A DNA stretch of 32,746 bases from a virus. The translations under genes were made by a program, and so were the position numbers. The notes beneath the pieces were generated by a model, which was not told the DNA's origin, did no database searches, and saw only the letters and a list, made by a program, of their open reading frames with translations. Positions 5,016 to 15,268 of this stretch are shown here, one piece after another (the first letter of the stretch is position 1; every line of letters begins with the position of its first letter). Location of the stretch: the IMG/VR virus record IMGVR_UViG_3300042731_006430, positions 1 to 32,746 of that record. One strand, 5' to 3'.

Positions 5016-5795
5016 ATGGCTACTGAAAACGGAAAACGGGCACTGCACGCTCTACTGGCTGTCGAGTCGGACCTCAAAGGGGAATTCGACAAGATCGTGG
5101 TGGAAGCAAAGAAAACCTTCAAGGACAAGCAGAAGCATTTCGAGTCCTGGCACCGGACCTTGAAGATGAAGGATCAGACCCGAGAGCAGGAGGAAGCCGC
5201 TGGTGAAGAATACCAGGCCATGGTGACCACTGTTCCGGCCAAGCTGGAGTACACCGGCAAGGCTTTTGCCAAGTACATGGATGCCTTGTTCCAGAAAGAG
5301 ATGACCAACCAGACGGCCAATGCAGACCTGGTAGTCGATGGTGACGTCATCGCCCAGCAGGTACCGGCTACCTGTTTGCTGGCCCTGGAAAACAAGCTCA
5401 AGATGTATCGGTCCATGGTCGAGTTGATCCCGACCTGGGCACCGGGCATCGAGTGGGTACCCGATTCAGCCCAGGGCGAGGGTGTATTCCGGGCCAAGCA
5501 CCCGGAAACTGCTCTGAAGACGGAGCAGATCCTCAAGCCCTTCACGCTGTACGAGGCCACCCCAGAGCATCCGGCCCAGGTGGACAAGTTGACCGAGCAG
5601 GTATCGGTCGGACTTTTCACCCGGCAGAAGTGGACGGGTACCATCTCACCCGCGCAGAAGTCCAGGCTGCTGGGCACCATCGACAACGTCATTCGCTCTG
5701 TCAAGCAGGCGAGGATGAAGGCCAATGAGACCGAAATCATCTCTGGCCAGATCGGTGAGAAGCTGTTTGATAAGATCATCAATGCAGTGAAGTGA
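5016..5795 (+). CDS. Conserved phage/bacterial protein of unknown function (DUF7873-like)
   Basis: 259 residues, ATG 5016 after AAAGGAGGAGG. I recognise blocks shared with a family of unknown function found in actinobacteria, cyanobacteria and phages (I believe DUF7873, not checked): an N-terminal LLAVE, a central VVDGDVIAQQVPATCLLALE followed by a hydrophobic helix and PTWAPGIEW, then FTLYEATPEHPAQ and a long C-terminal basic helix. It has no membrane segment. It is a single-gene transcription unit, with its own promoter upstream and a hairpin terminator directly after the stop. Its codons are visibly more GC-ending than its neighbours', like the capsid genes further on, which suggests high expression. 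Confidence 0.82.
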   Translation: MATENGKRALHALLAVESDLKGEFDKIVVEAKKTFKDKQKHFESWHRTLKMKDQTREQEEAAGEEYQAMVTTVPAKLEYTGKAFAKYMDALFQKEMTNQTANADLVVDGDVIAQQVPATCLLALENKLKMYRSMVELIPTWAPGIEWVPDSAQGEGVFRAKHPETALKTEQILKPFTLYEATPEHPAQVDKLTEQVSVGLFTRQKWTGTISPAQKSRLLGTIDNVIRSVKQARMKANETEIISGQIGEKLFDKIINAVK

Positions 5796-5799
5796 TCTT

Positions 5800-5868
5800 G
5801 AGGAGTCGGTTGGTTTCCTAGCCGCGCACTGGCGAATAAACTAAATCCGGCTCCTCGTTTTGTTCTTT
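5800..5868 (+). terminator. Probable rho-independent terminator (long loop)
   Basis: GAGGAGTCGG (5800-5809) pairs with CCGGCTCCTC (5847-5856) over 10 bp with one G-U, followed by a T-rich tail GTTTTGTTCTTT. It begins 5 nt after the stop at 5795. The 37-nt loop is long for a terminator, and the same bases can form an alternative H-type pseudoknot (AGGA 5801/TCCT 5816; CGGTT 5807/AGCCG 5820), so the stem may instead belong to the structured RNA that follows. Confidence 0.55.
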
Positions 5869-6073
5869 GACAAGGTGATTAGCTTTGGGCCAAACTCAGG
5901 CTCTGATGTTGGTGTGGTCGCCCCTACACGCACCAGATTTGGCTCCTCAAAACTTTATATAGGTTCAAGGGGAGTCAGACTGGAAAATTCGGGATAACGA
6001 CCGTTAGCCTAGGTGTTTTGCCCACAGCTTCATAGTCTGATCTTGCTTTCAGTTCATCGGTAGCGTATTCTAT
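5869..6073 (+). ncRNA. Structured RNA with group I intron-like core pairings (candidate 3' intron half)
   Basis: No credible ORF. Pairings seen, in order: GGGCCAAA (5887) with TTTGGCTC (5938), P4-like, enclosing TGGTG (5910)/CACCA (5931), P5-like; CTCCTC (5943) with GGGGAG (5969), P6-like, with AACTT/AGGTT inside; a TCA joint; then TCAGACT (5975) with AGTCTGA (6034), a 7-bp helix with the sequence character of group I P7, including CATAGTC on the 3' strand as in known introns. Between the P7 strands lies a hairpin GGATAAC-GACC-GTTAGCC. A convincing P3, a P1 guide and the terminal G of a group I intron were not found, so this is a candidate only. Confidence 0.5.
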
Positions 6074-6155
6074 CAAGCTCCAGGTCGCCGGTTCAAATCC
6101 GGTCCCGGCCTCCATTTTATGGCCGGGTAGCTCAGGGTTTAGAGCGGGAGTTTTA
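6074..6155 (+). tRNA. Circularly permuted tRNA gene (3' half upstream of 5' half)
   Basis: 3' half: anticodon-stem strand GCTCC (6077), variable AGGTC, T stem GCCGG, loop TTCAAAT, CCGGT, acceptor strand CCCGGCC (6104-6110), T73 and encoded CCA (6112-6114). Linker TTTTAT (6115-6120). 5' half: acceptor strand GGCCGGG (6121-6127), TA, D stem GCTC, loop AGGGTTTA, GAGC, G26 and anticodon-stem strand GGAGT (6147-6151). Acceptor 7/7, D 4/4, anticodon 5/5 (one G-U) and T 5/5 (one G-U) all pair, and every segment has canonical length. Only the 7-nt anticodon loop is split, by the outer ends. The anticodon depends on the unknown splice points: UUC (Glu), AUC or UAA are possible. Confidence 0.78.
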
Positions 6156-6208
6156 ATTGTCAATCTTAGGATTGCTATTCGACGGACCAAGCGAGTAGGA
6201 CGACCCCA
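6156..6208 (+). ncRNA. Downstream flank of permuted tRNA (candidate 5' intron half)
   Basis: Non-coding between the tRNA 5' half and the terminator hairpin. It contains a small hairpin CAATC-TTAG-GATTG (6161-6174), the nonamer ATTCGACGG (6177-6185) that is also a tmRNA signature, and GCGAGTAGG (6191-6199), which can pair 8 of 9 with CCTACACGC (5923-5931) in the upstream flank. That long-range pairing would bring the two flanks together. Function inferred from position only. Confidence 0.4.
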
Positions 6209-6276
6209 GGCCAGCGTGAGAATAAATATTTTGGAGATAAATACTTATCTCGACCGCTGGCCTTGTTTTATTTTTG
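6209..6276 (+). terminator. Rho-independent terminator closing the structured RNA
   Basis: GGCCAGCG (6209-6216) pairs perfectly with CGCTGGCC (6255-6262) and is followed by TTGTTTTATTTTT. The loop holds a nested hairpin GAGATAA-ATAC-TTATCTC (6234-6251). It would end a transcript carrying the permuted tRNA. From 6277 to 6353 I see no further feature. Confidence 0.6.
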
Positions 6277-6353
6277 AAACGCACCTTAACTCCACTAATC
6301 CTATACATAATAAGATCTGTCGGGAAAGGTTAGTTTTATGCCTAGGAAACCCG

Positions 6354-6692
6354 ATGGGAAAGAAGAAAAGCAAAGACGACTCCACTCTACTTCAAAAGAT
6401 GTATATCACTATGAAGAAAGTGCGGGCGGAATTGATTCAGCGGGAGAAGACTATAAGACATCTGGAAGGTATCATCAAGAAGCTGCAGCAAGACCTGGAA
6501 TTGGAACGTGATAACAGAAAGCATTGGTACGAGAAGGCAACTGATCTGATGTCTGAACTAGTGGTAACACGGGAAAATCTGCGGCACGCTGAGGACAGGA
6601 GGGATTTCTTCAAACGAAACCTCCTGGAATATAAAAAGACTCGCGAGGCGGATATAACCGTTAAGGAGATAAAAAGTGAAAATCATACATAA
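6354..6692 (+). CDS. Small coiled-coil protein
   Basis: I start the gene at ATG 6354, 6 nt after AGGA; the open frame extends to GTG 6216 but that part lies in the terminator and has poor coding character. The 112-residue product is almost entirely a Lys/Glu/Arg-rich heptad coiled coil (residues 15-100) after a KKKSK N-terminus. No enzyme motif. It may be a structural or scaffolding peptide; the family is not recognised. Confidence 0.68.
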   Translation: MGKKKSKDDSTLLQKMYITMKKVRAELIQREKTIRHLEGIIKKLQQDLELERDNRKHWYEKATDLMSELVVTRENLRHAEDRRDFFKRNLLEYKKTREADITVKEIKSENHT

Positions 6693-10836: not shown

Positions 10837-11135
10837 TGACTCTTAACGATCTGTTGATACTGTGTGAGCGCTGGAATAACTTAGGTCCGGCAGTTCAGAA
10901 GCAACTGGACCTGGTTCAACGGCAAAGAAGTTCTGGAGATATTGTCAAACTAGTGTACGACGCCAGAATAAACCCAAATGCCATTCCTGTCATTGCGGAT
11001 TTTTTAGACAGCTTGGCGGATAAATTTGACGGTGAAGAACTCGGCGATGAGGCTATGTCTGTTTTGATGAGCATAGATGAAGCTGCAGACGACGTTACAG
11101 AATTTGAGGACTTGGAGTTTGAACCGGAGATCTGA
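10836..11135 (+). CDS. Small acidic helical protein
   Basis: Start overlaps the previous stop by one base (TAATG), with AGGAGGGG ahead, and its stop overlaps the next start likewise. 99 residues, mainly helical with an acidic tail. It is one of several such proteins in this region and probably translated in step with the giant gene that follows. Function unknown. Confidence 0.72.
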   Translation: MTLNDLLILCERWNNLGPAVQKQLDLVQRQRSSGDIVKLVYDARINPNAIPVIADFLDSLADKFDGEELGDEAMSVLMSIDEAADDVTEFEDLEFEPEI

Positions 11136-14100
11136 TGAAGGTCAAAGCACAGGATGTAGCGATGCCCATTCAGGTTATCAATGCACCGGAAGATCTGAAT
11201 GGTGTATTGGATCTGTCGGTAGATGAAGCTCTAGCCATTGCTCTTCAGAAGACGGATGAATCGGGTAATCTTTCGAATGTCTGGTACGAACAACTCCTGA
11301 GCAAGCTGGGTGAAACAGAGCAGAATAGTTTCACTATGGGGATAGCTGGTGAGGGAATCGTGGTGAGGTCTGGTATGACAAAGTCAGAAGTCGAAAAGCT
11401 TAAAGCCAAAATGATGAATCTATTCAAATTGCAGGGTTGCATTTATGAAGATCAATACCGCGACCTAACTAAGAATTTGAGTGTCCAGGCAGACCCCATC
11501 TTGTTTGACTGGTTTATGACTGCTGGCATCCCTCTTAAGAAGAACCAGCCTAAAGTGGATCGGAAGAAGAAAAAGACCAAATATAAGGAAGAAGTGGAAG
11601 ATCTTGCCAAACATCCGGACATTCGTAAGATCAAGAGTAGGGACATGAAAAAGACAGCTACCATCAACCTGCAGCCCGTCATTGAGGAGTTGAAGCATTG
11701 CGAGAGCGAGTACCTACCTGCTTGGAAGAAGTGGGATAAGAAGCGTGCTCAATACATCGATATGAATGCCGTTAAAGCCTGGATGCGGGAGAACGCAGAG
11801 AACTTTGCTGGGGGAGGTTATTATTATCCTGATCGTCGTGGATTGGTAGACGCTGCGGTTAGGGAGTTTGGTCTGGAGAATCAGCCAGACAGGGGCTGGA
11901 TTCGTACACTAGCCGATGAAGTGCTGGATGAATACAATGCCACGCTTCAAAAACAAGCCGATCTCCGTTTGTCCCCCTCAGACAAACGGGTAATCATGAA
12001 GTTTATTGATAGAGAACCGGCCGAAAACAGAAAATTCCGCTCTGATGGTGAAAGGTTAGACGGTTTGTGGGCGGGTGGGAACGATTTGGCTGTATGGGAA
12101 GAAGACAGACTAGTGATTTCTGAGCCTACCGGTAGGGCTTCCCAGACTGTGGCTCGTTTCATCCGCAAGAATACTCCGGACAGGTGGCTGCTAGGTGTGG
12201 AAGAGGAAGCATGCGTAGAGGAAGATGCCTGTAGGGCAGGTAACGAAAATCTTATGACCGAAATGAAACAGCAGAAACCCGATATGGTGTTGTCTGGCGC
12301 TAAGGACTCGGGAGGCCGGGATCTGGCTGTAGGTGATCAGGTCTTGTATTCAGAACACGGGGCCAGTTCCCCTTATCATTGTCGGATTGAAGAGATTAAT
12401 GAAGAGACTGGAGAAGTCACTATCGTTGACGACAGCAACAACATCGATACGGTGAAGAGCGACCGGCTGACCAAGAAGTCCAGGTTTATCACTGAGAGAG
12501 AGTTGCGAGAAATTGGTAAGACTCCAAGGGCACAGGAAGCTTACGAACGAGCTAAGGAAAGAACGGAGAACTTGAAGAAAAAAGCCTATGGAGACATTGA
12601 ACTACCTGAATACTCAAACGATTATCACTGGGTTGATCTGGCTCTTATGTTGCAAGGTTACCACGAGGGTCAGGCTGATCCTGTTTATGCTTTCACCAGC
12701 AGGGAAGAAAACACGATGTCTCTCGAAGAATTATACGCTATTACCGGCGTAGTAGAGGACATCGTAAGCGGTAAGTATTTGGATCAATTTGATGTAGGTA
12801 TAGAGGACGAGAGTGAATGGGATGAGGAAACAGGCGAGGTATACGACCAACTGATAGATGAAATAGCCATCGCTAGCGCTTGGCTGCCAACTTTGCAGAA
12901 TTTGGGAGACGAGCACGGTGGGATAGATGAGGAAGCCTGTGTTGAAACTGAGGGATACATGGGTCAGAAGATCGGACCCAATATCGAAACAAGGGGACAA
13001 TTAGACGACCTTAAAGTGGGCGACAAAGTTAAGTGGTCCAAACAGCCGACCTTTACCGGGCACTTCGTGATATCAGACATAAAGACAGACACAAAGGGTA
13101 ACACCTTTTACGAATTGGAAGTACCACCTCACATAATGGATAAGATGGGTGGATATTTGCCTCCTGTGTTAGTTACTAGAAACGAGATCACGAGAGTATC
13201 CCGCGAAATTAGGGGACCGACCGACGTGGAGACAGAAAGAGAAGAAGTACGGCAACGCCACAGACGAGAAAAGCTGAGGCGGAAAGACGCTCATGGAAGG
13301 AGAGTCAAAGCCGACAAACAATATGTGTTGAGATCTAAAACTGACAAAAAACAGTACTATTCTGGTGGGAAATTCAACGCACCACAGACTACCATCGACC
13401 CGGATACGGCTGTATTCATAAACGGAAGTGAACTCCTATCCATGACTTATAATTGGAACCATGCCTGGGAAGCTTTGACCGAGAAGGATTGGCAGAGACT
13501 TCCCAGGACTGCCAATATCGACCTGGAGGCTTGTGATCTGATAGTCAAACACGCATTGCCCCAGGGAGGAGACGTGTCGGTCTACACCGATCATGTAGGC
13601 AATTTTCTGATTTATGAGGGAAATGAACTATATGGTCAGGCCCATAGCCAGGAGATGGCTGAGGAGATAGCCAGTGATTTGTTCGGTCAGTTGCGTGAGC
13701 ATGTGCCTTACAAAAAGCAAGTGGCTATGAAAGTAAAGCTTGATAGTACGGATAAAGAGGGCATGGTTTTAGCTTTGGCTGATTGGTCTGACGCTGAAGA
13801 GGATCAGTCTATTGCTGGCTCCAAGTGGGAACATGATGGGGATTTTGCTTATGCGCTGATTGGTGATCATCCCGGTCTGGTGAGTGAACTTGTAAAGGAT
13901 GGTTATGATCTGGATCTGGAGGAATATAGCGCTCCAGGCGAAGTTCCTCCTAAGAAGCCTAAGACGAAAGGTGCTGGTATGCCAGATAAATGTAAAGGTT
14001 GCAATTCCTTCCTGCCAGCCGACAATGAAAGCGGTTACTGCAGCAAATGTGAGAAAGGTAATAAGGAAGCTCAGCTTTCCAGAACCGGTATAGAATTTAT

Positions 14101-15268
14101 AGACAAGATGAAAGGAGATGCCCCGTACGTAGTAATATTCACCCCTACGGGAAAAGCTGGTACGGGGGAAGATATGTACACAGCTACCGTTCACGATGAA
14201 CATATGAATAGTATGGCCATAGACACACAAAATGGCACAATGGCACAATTGCTTCCTATTATGGTGAAGGAATATCCAAATATTATATACCAATACAGTA
14301 ATGGGGAGAAATTTGATCCTGAAGTGACATTACAAACGCTGCAGCAAACTGCTCAACTATCTATGAGTGAGGGTGCGCTGGAGTTGCAGAAGAAGGAACT
14401 CATCCAGAATATTGAGTCTACCTGGGGAGCCAGGGACGAAAATGCCGCTAAATGGATAGAGATCGTTGAGGAATCAGAGTCCTGGGCCGAATTGATGCAA
14501 ATCTGGAAACAGTTGTTTGGCGCTTCCAGTGACGTACCCATGCCCACCGAGCAGCGTTGGAAAGACGTGGCTCCGGAGGAGTATGGACTGATCGAACTAC
14601 CTGCCCGTGCCCATAAGACCGCCAAAGCTGATGTCAAGTATTTGAAACTGGAAAACCCAGAACTTAATGCTTTGGGTTGGATAGCTTATAACGTAGAATC
14701 GGGACTGACTGATATAGCTCACTCCGCCAATCACCAGGGAGTGGTCGAAGTTCCTCTGGATAAAGTCAGTTTTGTCAAGAAGATACTTAGAAAACAACTG
14801 AAAGCAGACCGTCCTCGTAACGCTCATTACACTAAGGACGTGCTTAAAAGATTGCTGGAAAAGTTTGAGACCCTGTCAAAAATAAAGCGTACTGTGGCTA
14901 GCGAATTTGACTGGGTACCTGTAAAATTCGGGGAAAGGACTTTCAAGGTCCTGTTGGCCGATTCGGATGAGAAAAAGACAGCCGGTCTTGAACCTCTGGA
15001 TGATCTGGATGATGATCAGGGTATGTTGTTTCCCTTTGGTGATCCCCAGCACGTGACCTTTCACATGGGCAAAGTCAAGTTCCCTATTGATATTCTATTC
15101 CTGCAGGAAGACGATATCATGGGGTTGAAGGTGGCCAAGATTATACACAATGTCCAACCGGGAGCAGTGGAGAGGTGGAGTAGTCCCAGAACCAAGCTGG
15201 TAGTGGAATTTCCTGGTGGAACTTGTAAAGCCAACAGTATCAAGGTGGGATCAGTCTGCGAGATCTAA
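11135..15268 (+). CDS. Giant multidomain virion-type protein with C-terminal DUF192 domain
   Basis: 1377 residues. Parts I can see: a helical N-terminus; SH3/KOW-like beta barrels at about 396-445 and 625-670 (both open with a VGD turn); a four-Cys zinc ribbon (CKGC near 953 and CSKC near 969); and a C-terminal DUF192 domain (about 1262-1377) recognised from KTAGLEPLDDLDDDQGMLF, the following FPIDILFL block and the LVVEFPGGT strand. EEAC-type segments recur near 358, 599 and 798. Short [K/R]-T-A or [K/R]-T-V-A motifs occur near 173, 791, 1161 and 1252 and may be protease sites dividing the chain. DUF192 function is unknown. The gene lies between terminase and portal, so I infer a virion or internal head protein. 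Confidence 0.8.
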   Translation: MKVKAQDVAMPIQVINAPEDLNGVLDLSVDEALAIALQKTDESGNLSNVWYEQLLSKLGETEQNSFTMGIAGEGIVVRSGMTKSEVEKLKAKMMNLFKLQGCIYEDQYRDLTKNLSVQADPILFDWFMTAGIPLKKNQPKVDRKKKKTKYKEEVEDLAKHPDIRKIKSRDMKKTATINLQPVIEELKHCESEYLPAWKKWDKKRAQYIDMNAVKAWMRENAENFAGGGYYYPDRRGLVDAAVREFGLENQPDRGWIRTLADEVLDEYNATLQKQADLRLSPSDKRVIMKFIDREPAENRKFRSDGERLDGLWAGGNDLAVWEEDRLVISEPTGRASQTVARFIRKNTPDRWLLGVEEEACVEEDACRAGNENLMTEMKQQKPDMVLSGAKDSGGRDLAVGDQVLYSEHGASSPYHCRIEEINEETGEVTIVDDSNNIDTVKSDRLTKKSRFITERELREIGKTPRAQEAYERAKERTENLKKKAYGDIELPEYSNDYHWVDLALMLQGYHEGQADPVYAFTSREENTMSLEELYAITGVVEDIVSGKYLDQFDVGIEDESEWDEETGEVYDQLIDEIAIASAWLPTLQNLGDEHGGIDEEACVETEGYMGQKIGPNIETRGQLDDLKVGDKVKWSKQPTFTGHFVISDIKTDTKGNTFYELEVPPHIMDKMGGYLPPVLVTRNEITRVSREIRGPTDVETEREEVRQRHRREKLRRKDAHGRRVKADKQYVLRSKTDKKQYYSGGKFNAPQTTIDPDTAVFINGSELLSMTYNWNHAWEALTEKDWQRLPRTANIDLEACDLIVKHALPQGGDVSVYTDHVGNFLIYEGNELYGQAHSQEMAEEIASDLFGQLREHVPYKKQVAMKVKLDSTDKEGMVLALADWSDAEEDQSIAGSKWEHDGDFAYALIGDHPGLVSELVKDGYDLDLEEYSAPGEVPPKKPKTKGAGMPDKCKGCNSFLPADNESGYCSKCEKGNKEAQLSRTGIEFIDKMKGDAPYVVIFTPTGKAGTGEDMYTATVHDEHMNSMAIDTQNGTMAQLLPIMVKEYPNIIYQYSNGEKFDPEVTLQTLQQTAQLSMSEGALELQKKELIQNIESTWGARDENAAKWIEIVEESESWAELMQIWKQLFGASSDVPMPTEQRWKDVAPEEYGLIELPARAHKTAKADVKYLKLENPELNALGWIAYNVESGLTDIAHSANHQGVVEVPLDKVSFVKKILRKQLKADRPRNAHYTKDVLKRLLEKFETLSKIKRTVASEFDWVPVKFGERTFKVLLADSDEKKTAGLEPLDDLDDDQGMLFPFGDPQHVTFHMGKVKFPIDILFLQEDDIMGLKVAKIIHNVQPGAVERWSSPRTKLVVEFPGGTCKANSIKVGSVCEI

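Follow-up and report, generated by a model that had tools for sequence, protein, structure and literature searches.

Circularly permuted tRNA genes have been described from algae and some archaea (PMC3978253, PMC3218864). A related arrangement is found in YrlA, a bacterial Y RNA that mimics a tRNA with circular permutation (PMC11472068, PMC8394870) and has been noted in phages as well (PMC7765460, PMC12282133). Permuted tRNA genes as such have not been reported from phages in the open-access papers that our search covered. An earlier note on the DNA described here, which pointed to a permuted tRNA gene, knew of none confirmed in a phage, but it overlooked YrlA as a permuted mimic already known from bacteria and their phages.

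The DNA analysed here (the window) is the whole 32,746-nt viral contig IMGVR_UViG_3300042731_006430 from IMG/VR. At positions 6077–6151, on the plus strand like the other parts of the locus described below, it encodes the 3′ half of a tRNA complete with CCA, a 6-nt linker and then the matching 5′ half. The 3′ half (6077–6114), which was identified from the sequence, the fold and the match to the covariance model R1 described below, is made up of the anticodon-stem 3′ strand GCTCC (6077–6081), a variable loop AGGTC (6082–6086), the T arm GCCGG-TTCAAAT-CCGGT (6087–6103), the acceptor 3′ strand CCCGGCC (6104–6110), the discriminator U73 (6111) and an encoded CCA (6112–6114). The linker TTTTAT (6115–6120) joins the CCA to the 5′ half (6121–6151, from sequence and fold), consisting of the acceptor 5′ strand GGCCGGG (6121–6127) followed by U8-A9, the D arm GCTC-AGGGTTTA-GAGC (6130–6145) followed by G26, and the anticodon-stem 5′ strand GGAGT (6147–6151). 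The earlier note had placed both halves correctly to the base, and the four stems that it paired across them are complete, with 7/7 acceptor, 5/5 T, 4/4 D and 5/5 anticodon pairs (G-U included).

ARAGORN, and Rfam at its gathering threshold, gave no match anywhere in the window, as is expected for a permuted gene. No arrangement of equal grade occurred in 60 shuffled copies of the window. The covariance model R1, built from 19 other phages with the window sequence left out, matched at 6072–6161 with 67.5 bits (E 1e-19) and had no second match in the window. Since R1 also scores ordinary tandem tRNAs, if more weakly, and is thus not specific to permuted genes, the case for the window is made by this score and by the way its own two halves pair. 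A DNA-level search of phages with the window RNA as query found no match, nor did a scan of IMG/VR for exact 27-mers.

The immediate upstream neighbour of the RNA is a gene at 5016–5795 that encodes a 259-residue protein of the family DUF7873 (PF25283, Pfam 3.1e-65). In total, 95 DUF7873 loci were collected, including 80 from IMG/VR and others from GenBank, with Rhizobium, Klebsiella, Vibrio, Arthrobacter, Gordonia and Rhodococcus among the hosts of the phages. A permuted tRNA-like gene lies downstream of DUF7873 in 92 of these 95 loci (91 found by scan and one, L048, by hand), several of which are near-identical contigs and therefore not all independent. The remainder comprises one locus that ends at a contig edge (L036) and two with only ordinary tRNAs downstream (L041 and L053). 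The same scan found 0/95 on the reverse strand and 4/92 on the upstream side of the gene; its 100 matches include some poor ones. In GenBank phages of Rhizobium, Klebsiella, Arthrobacter and Vibrio, the permuted tRNA lies in a non-coding gap after DUF7873, with no Ro60 nearby, and some loci carry two permuted copies in tandem. The pair of gene and RNA is also present on Streptomyces and Nonomuraea replicons and on two MAG contigs. This linkage, which the earlier note missed, makes DUF7873 the likely protein partner of the RNA. One CCA-bearing permuted tRNA-like gene (L136, G003 194641–194770) was found on a 356-kb contig that has neither DUF7873 nor TROVE/Ro60.

The arrangement scan requires acceptor pairing, and the 99% paired acceptors among its matches are thus partly so by construction. 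When the T arm with CCA and the next downstream D arm were instead chosen blind to the acceptor, 6–7 of 7 acceptor pairs formed in 41 of 45 distinct loci, compared to none of 10 ordinary tRNAs from elsewhere in the DUF7873 loci. Swapping acceptor halves between loci left at least 6 pairs in 9.1% of combinations. Scored in the best register on both sides, the anticodon stem had 4 or more of its 5 pairs in 94% of the true combinations, compared to 45% of the swapped ones. Of the IMG/VR tRNA pieces of the same spacing, nearly all (73/80) were ordinary tandem tRNAs, with 0–5 acceptor pairs. The counterpart of the window RNA in a relative (G001, described below) differs from it by compensating changes in both the acceptor and the D stem. 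The two halves covary across phage loci, and the permuted order is real and conserved. That part of the earlier note stands, and the two outcomes it had named as fatal, homologues lacking covariation or decayed tandem copies, are both contradicted by these comparisons.

In the homologues, the linker is 2–92 nt long and often ends with TTAT ahead of G1; the nucleotide at position −1 is U in 52%, similar to the 53% counted for the true tRNAs in these loci. In one exceptional case (L048:3414–3976), the linker reaches 531 nt, CCA included, and encloses an ORF (L048:3501–3956) that by eye looks like an HNH endonuclease and has no Pfam match. The acceptor (7/7) and anticodon (5/5) pairs are kept around this insertion, which argues that the linker is excised. 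Removal would presumably be carried out by RNase P and the tRNA 3′ maturation enzymes, with RNase P cleavage predicted from the shape of the substrate. CCA is encoded in 71/100 scan matches, indicating that the 3′ end of the RNA matters.

The RNA does not end at the anticodon stem. When region 6040–6200 is folded as a single strand, this stem is extended outwards to 6042/6195 (MFE −58.2 kcal/mol, z −3.9), so that the modelled feature is larger than the earlier note gave. The 5′ strand of this basal stem (6042–6072; helices 6042–6048, 6052–6055, 6057–6060, 6061–6065 and 6067–6072) pairs in the MFE fold with a 3′ strand at 6167–6195 (6167–6172, 6173–6177, 6179–6182, 6184–6187 and 6189–6195). Between the anticodon stem and the basal stem, the fold leaves 6154–6166 as the unpaired strand of an asymmetric loop, which in homologues is typically 11–14 nt long and often reads TNANNNTGA. 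Across 78 homologues, the flanks of the anticodon stem reach a helix score of 17.0, compared to 13.3–14.6 for swapped partners. Downstream, a terminator-like hairpin (AGGCCAGCG/CGCTGGCCT, 6208–6216/6255–6263) followed by TGTTTTATTTTT was read from the sequence at 6208–6275; it is not listed by the automatic scan, for which its loop is too long.

Upstream of the stem is a further domain (5881–6029), in which a closing helix of 9/10 pairs, read by eye, between AGCTTTGGGC (5881–5890) and GCCCACAGCT (6020–6029) encloses motifs of a hexamer type, such as CAAACT (5891), CAGGCT (5897), CAGACT (5976) and CAGCTT (6025). Nineteen nucleotides of this domain, GGTGTTTTGCCCACAGCTT, are identical in G001. 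In 77 homologous regions between DUF7873 and the stem, the identity at lag 6 is 0.307, against a mean of 0.263 and a maximum of 0.273 in shuffles. The motif YA[AGT]N[CGT]T is enriched 1.9-fold in the upstream regions and 1.6-fold just past the 5′ anticodon strand, with no enrichment in coding or downstream DNA. A helix of the GGGNCA/TTGNCCC type brackets the repeats in many loci, with a modest excess over swapped partners (17.7 vs 15.7–16.7). A match between CAGACT and AGTCTG also prompted a search for a permuted group I intron–exon arrangement, which was rejected because Rfam yielded no group I intron match within 5700–6400 even at E<10.

The regular 6-nt spacing suggests that a repeating protein is bound along the RNA, for which DUF7873 would be the natural candidate. 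The AF2 model of DUF7873 has a pLDDT of 90.6, yet neither a known fold nor a catalytic motif could be recognised in the protein, and a Foldseek search with the model had no match at E≤0.001. Cas7, the Cascade backbone subunit that spaces RNA by 6 nt, accounts for many of the entries at the head of the Foldseek list; their TM-scores (<0.15) and E values (>0.04) are not significant, and a Cas7-like identity was not retained. The 6-nt repeat nevertheless makes DUF7873 worth a structure.

The relative G001 (IMGVR_UViG_3300017963_000201) is a phage contig whose terminase is 52% identical to that of the window. Here, a Ro60 gene overlaps the start of the orthologue of the window's DUF7873 gene (51% identity), and just 3′ of DUF7873 is a permuted tRNA, TCCGACC-A-CCA-TAT-GGTCGGA, that corresponds to the window feature by synteny. 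About 5 kb of this contig (L006:748–3103 and L003) holds Ro60/TROVE, three permuted tRNA-like RNAs, two of them YrlA-type and one CCA-type, and four ordinary tRNAs. Ro60 is rare in this setting, being near DUF7873 in 1/94 loci, and no Ro60/TROVE gene is present in the window, which is a 32.7-kb fragment of its phage. At Ro60 loci, the permuted RNAs have closed loops of 4–9 nt and no CCA. An exception is G004 (L139, G004 58586–58934), a contig without DUF7873 in which two permuted tRNA-like RNAs lie by Ro60, one with CCA and the other with a closed loop. This pair may bridge YrlA and the DUF7873 type, and the border between the two is not sharp. Among the control bacteria, Deinobacterium chartae alone gave matches to TROVE as well as to DUF7873, a hint that the two families may be connected outside phages or in a prophage.

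Several other readings of the locus have to be weighed. Phages of this kind often carry tRNA arrays, which speaks for decayed tandem copies or a chance match. The shuffled windows, the swapped partners, the poor pairing of ordinary tandem tRNAs and the covariance across phages, as scored by R1, are all contrary to such an origin, whose probability we consider negligible. A permuted two-piece tmRNA has the same order of halves and a removable linker, and two homologues do match tmRNA weakly (16.7–18.8 bits). However, the best of these scores is far under the 47-bit cutoff, the D arm is a canonical 4-bp tRNA D arm rather than a reduced one, and the anticodon stem continues outwards. The alanine identity pair G3-U70 is not conserved either, with G-U at 3-70 in 1/70. 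With none of the marks of a tmRNA present, from Rfam match to reduced D arm and G3-U70, this identity is very unlikely and was dropped on the D arm and the scores.

More serious is the reading of the earlier note, a tRNA gene with nothing but its anticodon loop interrupted. The flanks would be removed and the anticodon loop joined to give a decoding tRNA; the splicing would fall to DUF7873 or to a phage ligase. The cloverleaf keeps the T loop, the D-loop GG, the variable loop GTC and the CCA, the loci often lie within phage tRNA arrays, and both the 3′-half-first order and the covariation of a circularly permuted tRNA gene are present. Nevertheless, joining the halves does not give a canonical anticodon loop of 7 nt with its U33: among 50 homologues, 44% have U at nucleotide 33, compared to 188/199 (94%) of true tRNAs in the same loci. 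The flanks pair, prolonging the anticodon stem as a conserved stem, and the spacing from the stem to the conserved TNANNNTGA varies. N73 is mixed (T33/A30/G27/C10) and drifts freely, without holding to any one synthetase identity. As for splicing, there is no group I intron match around the window feature even at E<10, and we know of no bacterial counterpart of the archaeal/eukaryotic bulge-helix-bulge endonuclease. To judge from these sequence features, the permuted element is probably not a decoding tRNA, and we regard a genuine permuted tRNA gene as unlikely. A plain YrlA-type Y RNA, which would bind a Ro60 encoded elsewhere in the phage or in its host, was favoured at first on account of the Ro60 and true YrlA genes in G001. 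The shared architecture speaks for it, including the circularly permuted tRNA-like domain itself, as does the CCA-bearing, Ro60-linked RNA of G004. The sole informative Rfam match of the window is also to YrlA (RF02553; 30.3 bits against a gathering threshold of 69, model positions 23–85 of 114), with 32–49 bits in homologues. This match covers the tRNA-like part alone, though, and ordinary bacterial genomes also yield sub-threshold YrlA matches. The whole YrlA model, including the Ro60-binding stem, is not matched, and the stem pairs of YrlA are violated in L052. The reading was dropped as DUF7873 loci without Ro60 carry the RNA all the same, and it now appears improbable. Since the Ro60 neighbour and the stem of YrlA are both absent, we do not call the window RNA a member of YrlA, but place its family among the Y-RNA-type permuted tRNA mimics, set apart from YrlA.

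The explanation that we favour, with somewhat better than even confidence, is that the window RNA belongs to an unannotated family of structured RNAs that many large phages encode just 3′ of DUF7873, a Y-RNA-like tRNA mimic with DUF7873 as its partner. It starts from what the sequence analysis shows: the permuted cloverleaf with its covariation, the DUF7873 linkage, the stem and the lack of a canonical anticodon loop. The RNA would have three parts, with the 6-nt-repeat domain upstream, the long irregular stem and the permuted cloverleaf as a cap. DUF7873 would bind the RNA, probably at the repeats and/or the stem, while the cloverleaf would take on the fold of a tRNA and mimic one. The linker would probably be excised by RNase P and 3′ maturation enzymes of the host, so that the RNA ends up in two pieces and with its CCA end free, similar to the maturation of permuted tmRNA. 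Through its tRNA-like head, the RNP would engage a tRNA-handling host factor during infection, and its overall action might be like that of a bacterial Y RNA, with DUF7873 in the place of Ro60. A bolder version, which we put forward tentatively and with clearly less confidence, is that this is a new class of viral RNP: DUF7873 would be arrayed along the 6-nt repeats, the two-piece head cut by RNase P would have a free, possibly aminoacylated CCA, and the complex would act on host translation or tRNA surveillance independently of Ro60.

Permuted genes of this kind are overlooked or misannotated by standard tRNA finders. In Klebsiella phage FBKp24, the annotated "tRNA-Sup-TTA" (L114:3509–3588) overlies upstream sequence and the 3′ half of a second such gene, and the suppressor-tRNA label is apparently a misannotation. 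That phages of such varied hosts retain this pair of gene and RNA suggests that imitating a tRNA answers a need common among phages. The pair provides a lead to the function of a so far uncharacterised protein family, takes the Y RNA theme beyond Ro60 and offers a clean test case for the action of bacterial RNase P and CCA enzymes on permuted substrates. As a separate observation, the 1377-residue protein encoded at window positions 11135–15268 has DUF192 as its C-terminal domain, seemingly an unusual find among the structural genes of a phage.

The phage RNA thus shares features with three known systems. Like the permuted tRNA genes of algae and archaea, it has the 3′ half before the 5′ half with a short linker between them, but it lacks a canonical anticodon loop and any sign of splicing, and it is found in bacterial viruses with a dedicated neighbouring protein gene. 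Permuted tmRNA likewise has a 3′ tRNA half with CCA, a removable linker and a 5′ half, whereas the phage RNA has a full tRNA D arm and no tmRNA match above the cutoff. YrlA, too, carries a permuted tRNA-like head (T arm, acceptor and D arm) on a long stem and is encoded beside the gene of an RNA-associated protein. In the window, however, this partner gene is DUF7873 instead of Ro60, and the stem is not matched by the YrlA model; the RNAs of the DUF7873 type have CCA and a linker of 2–92 nt in place of the short closed loop, and a domain of 6-nt repeats upstream.
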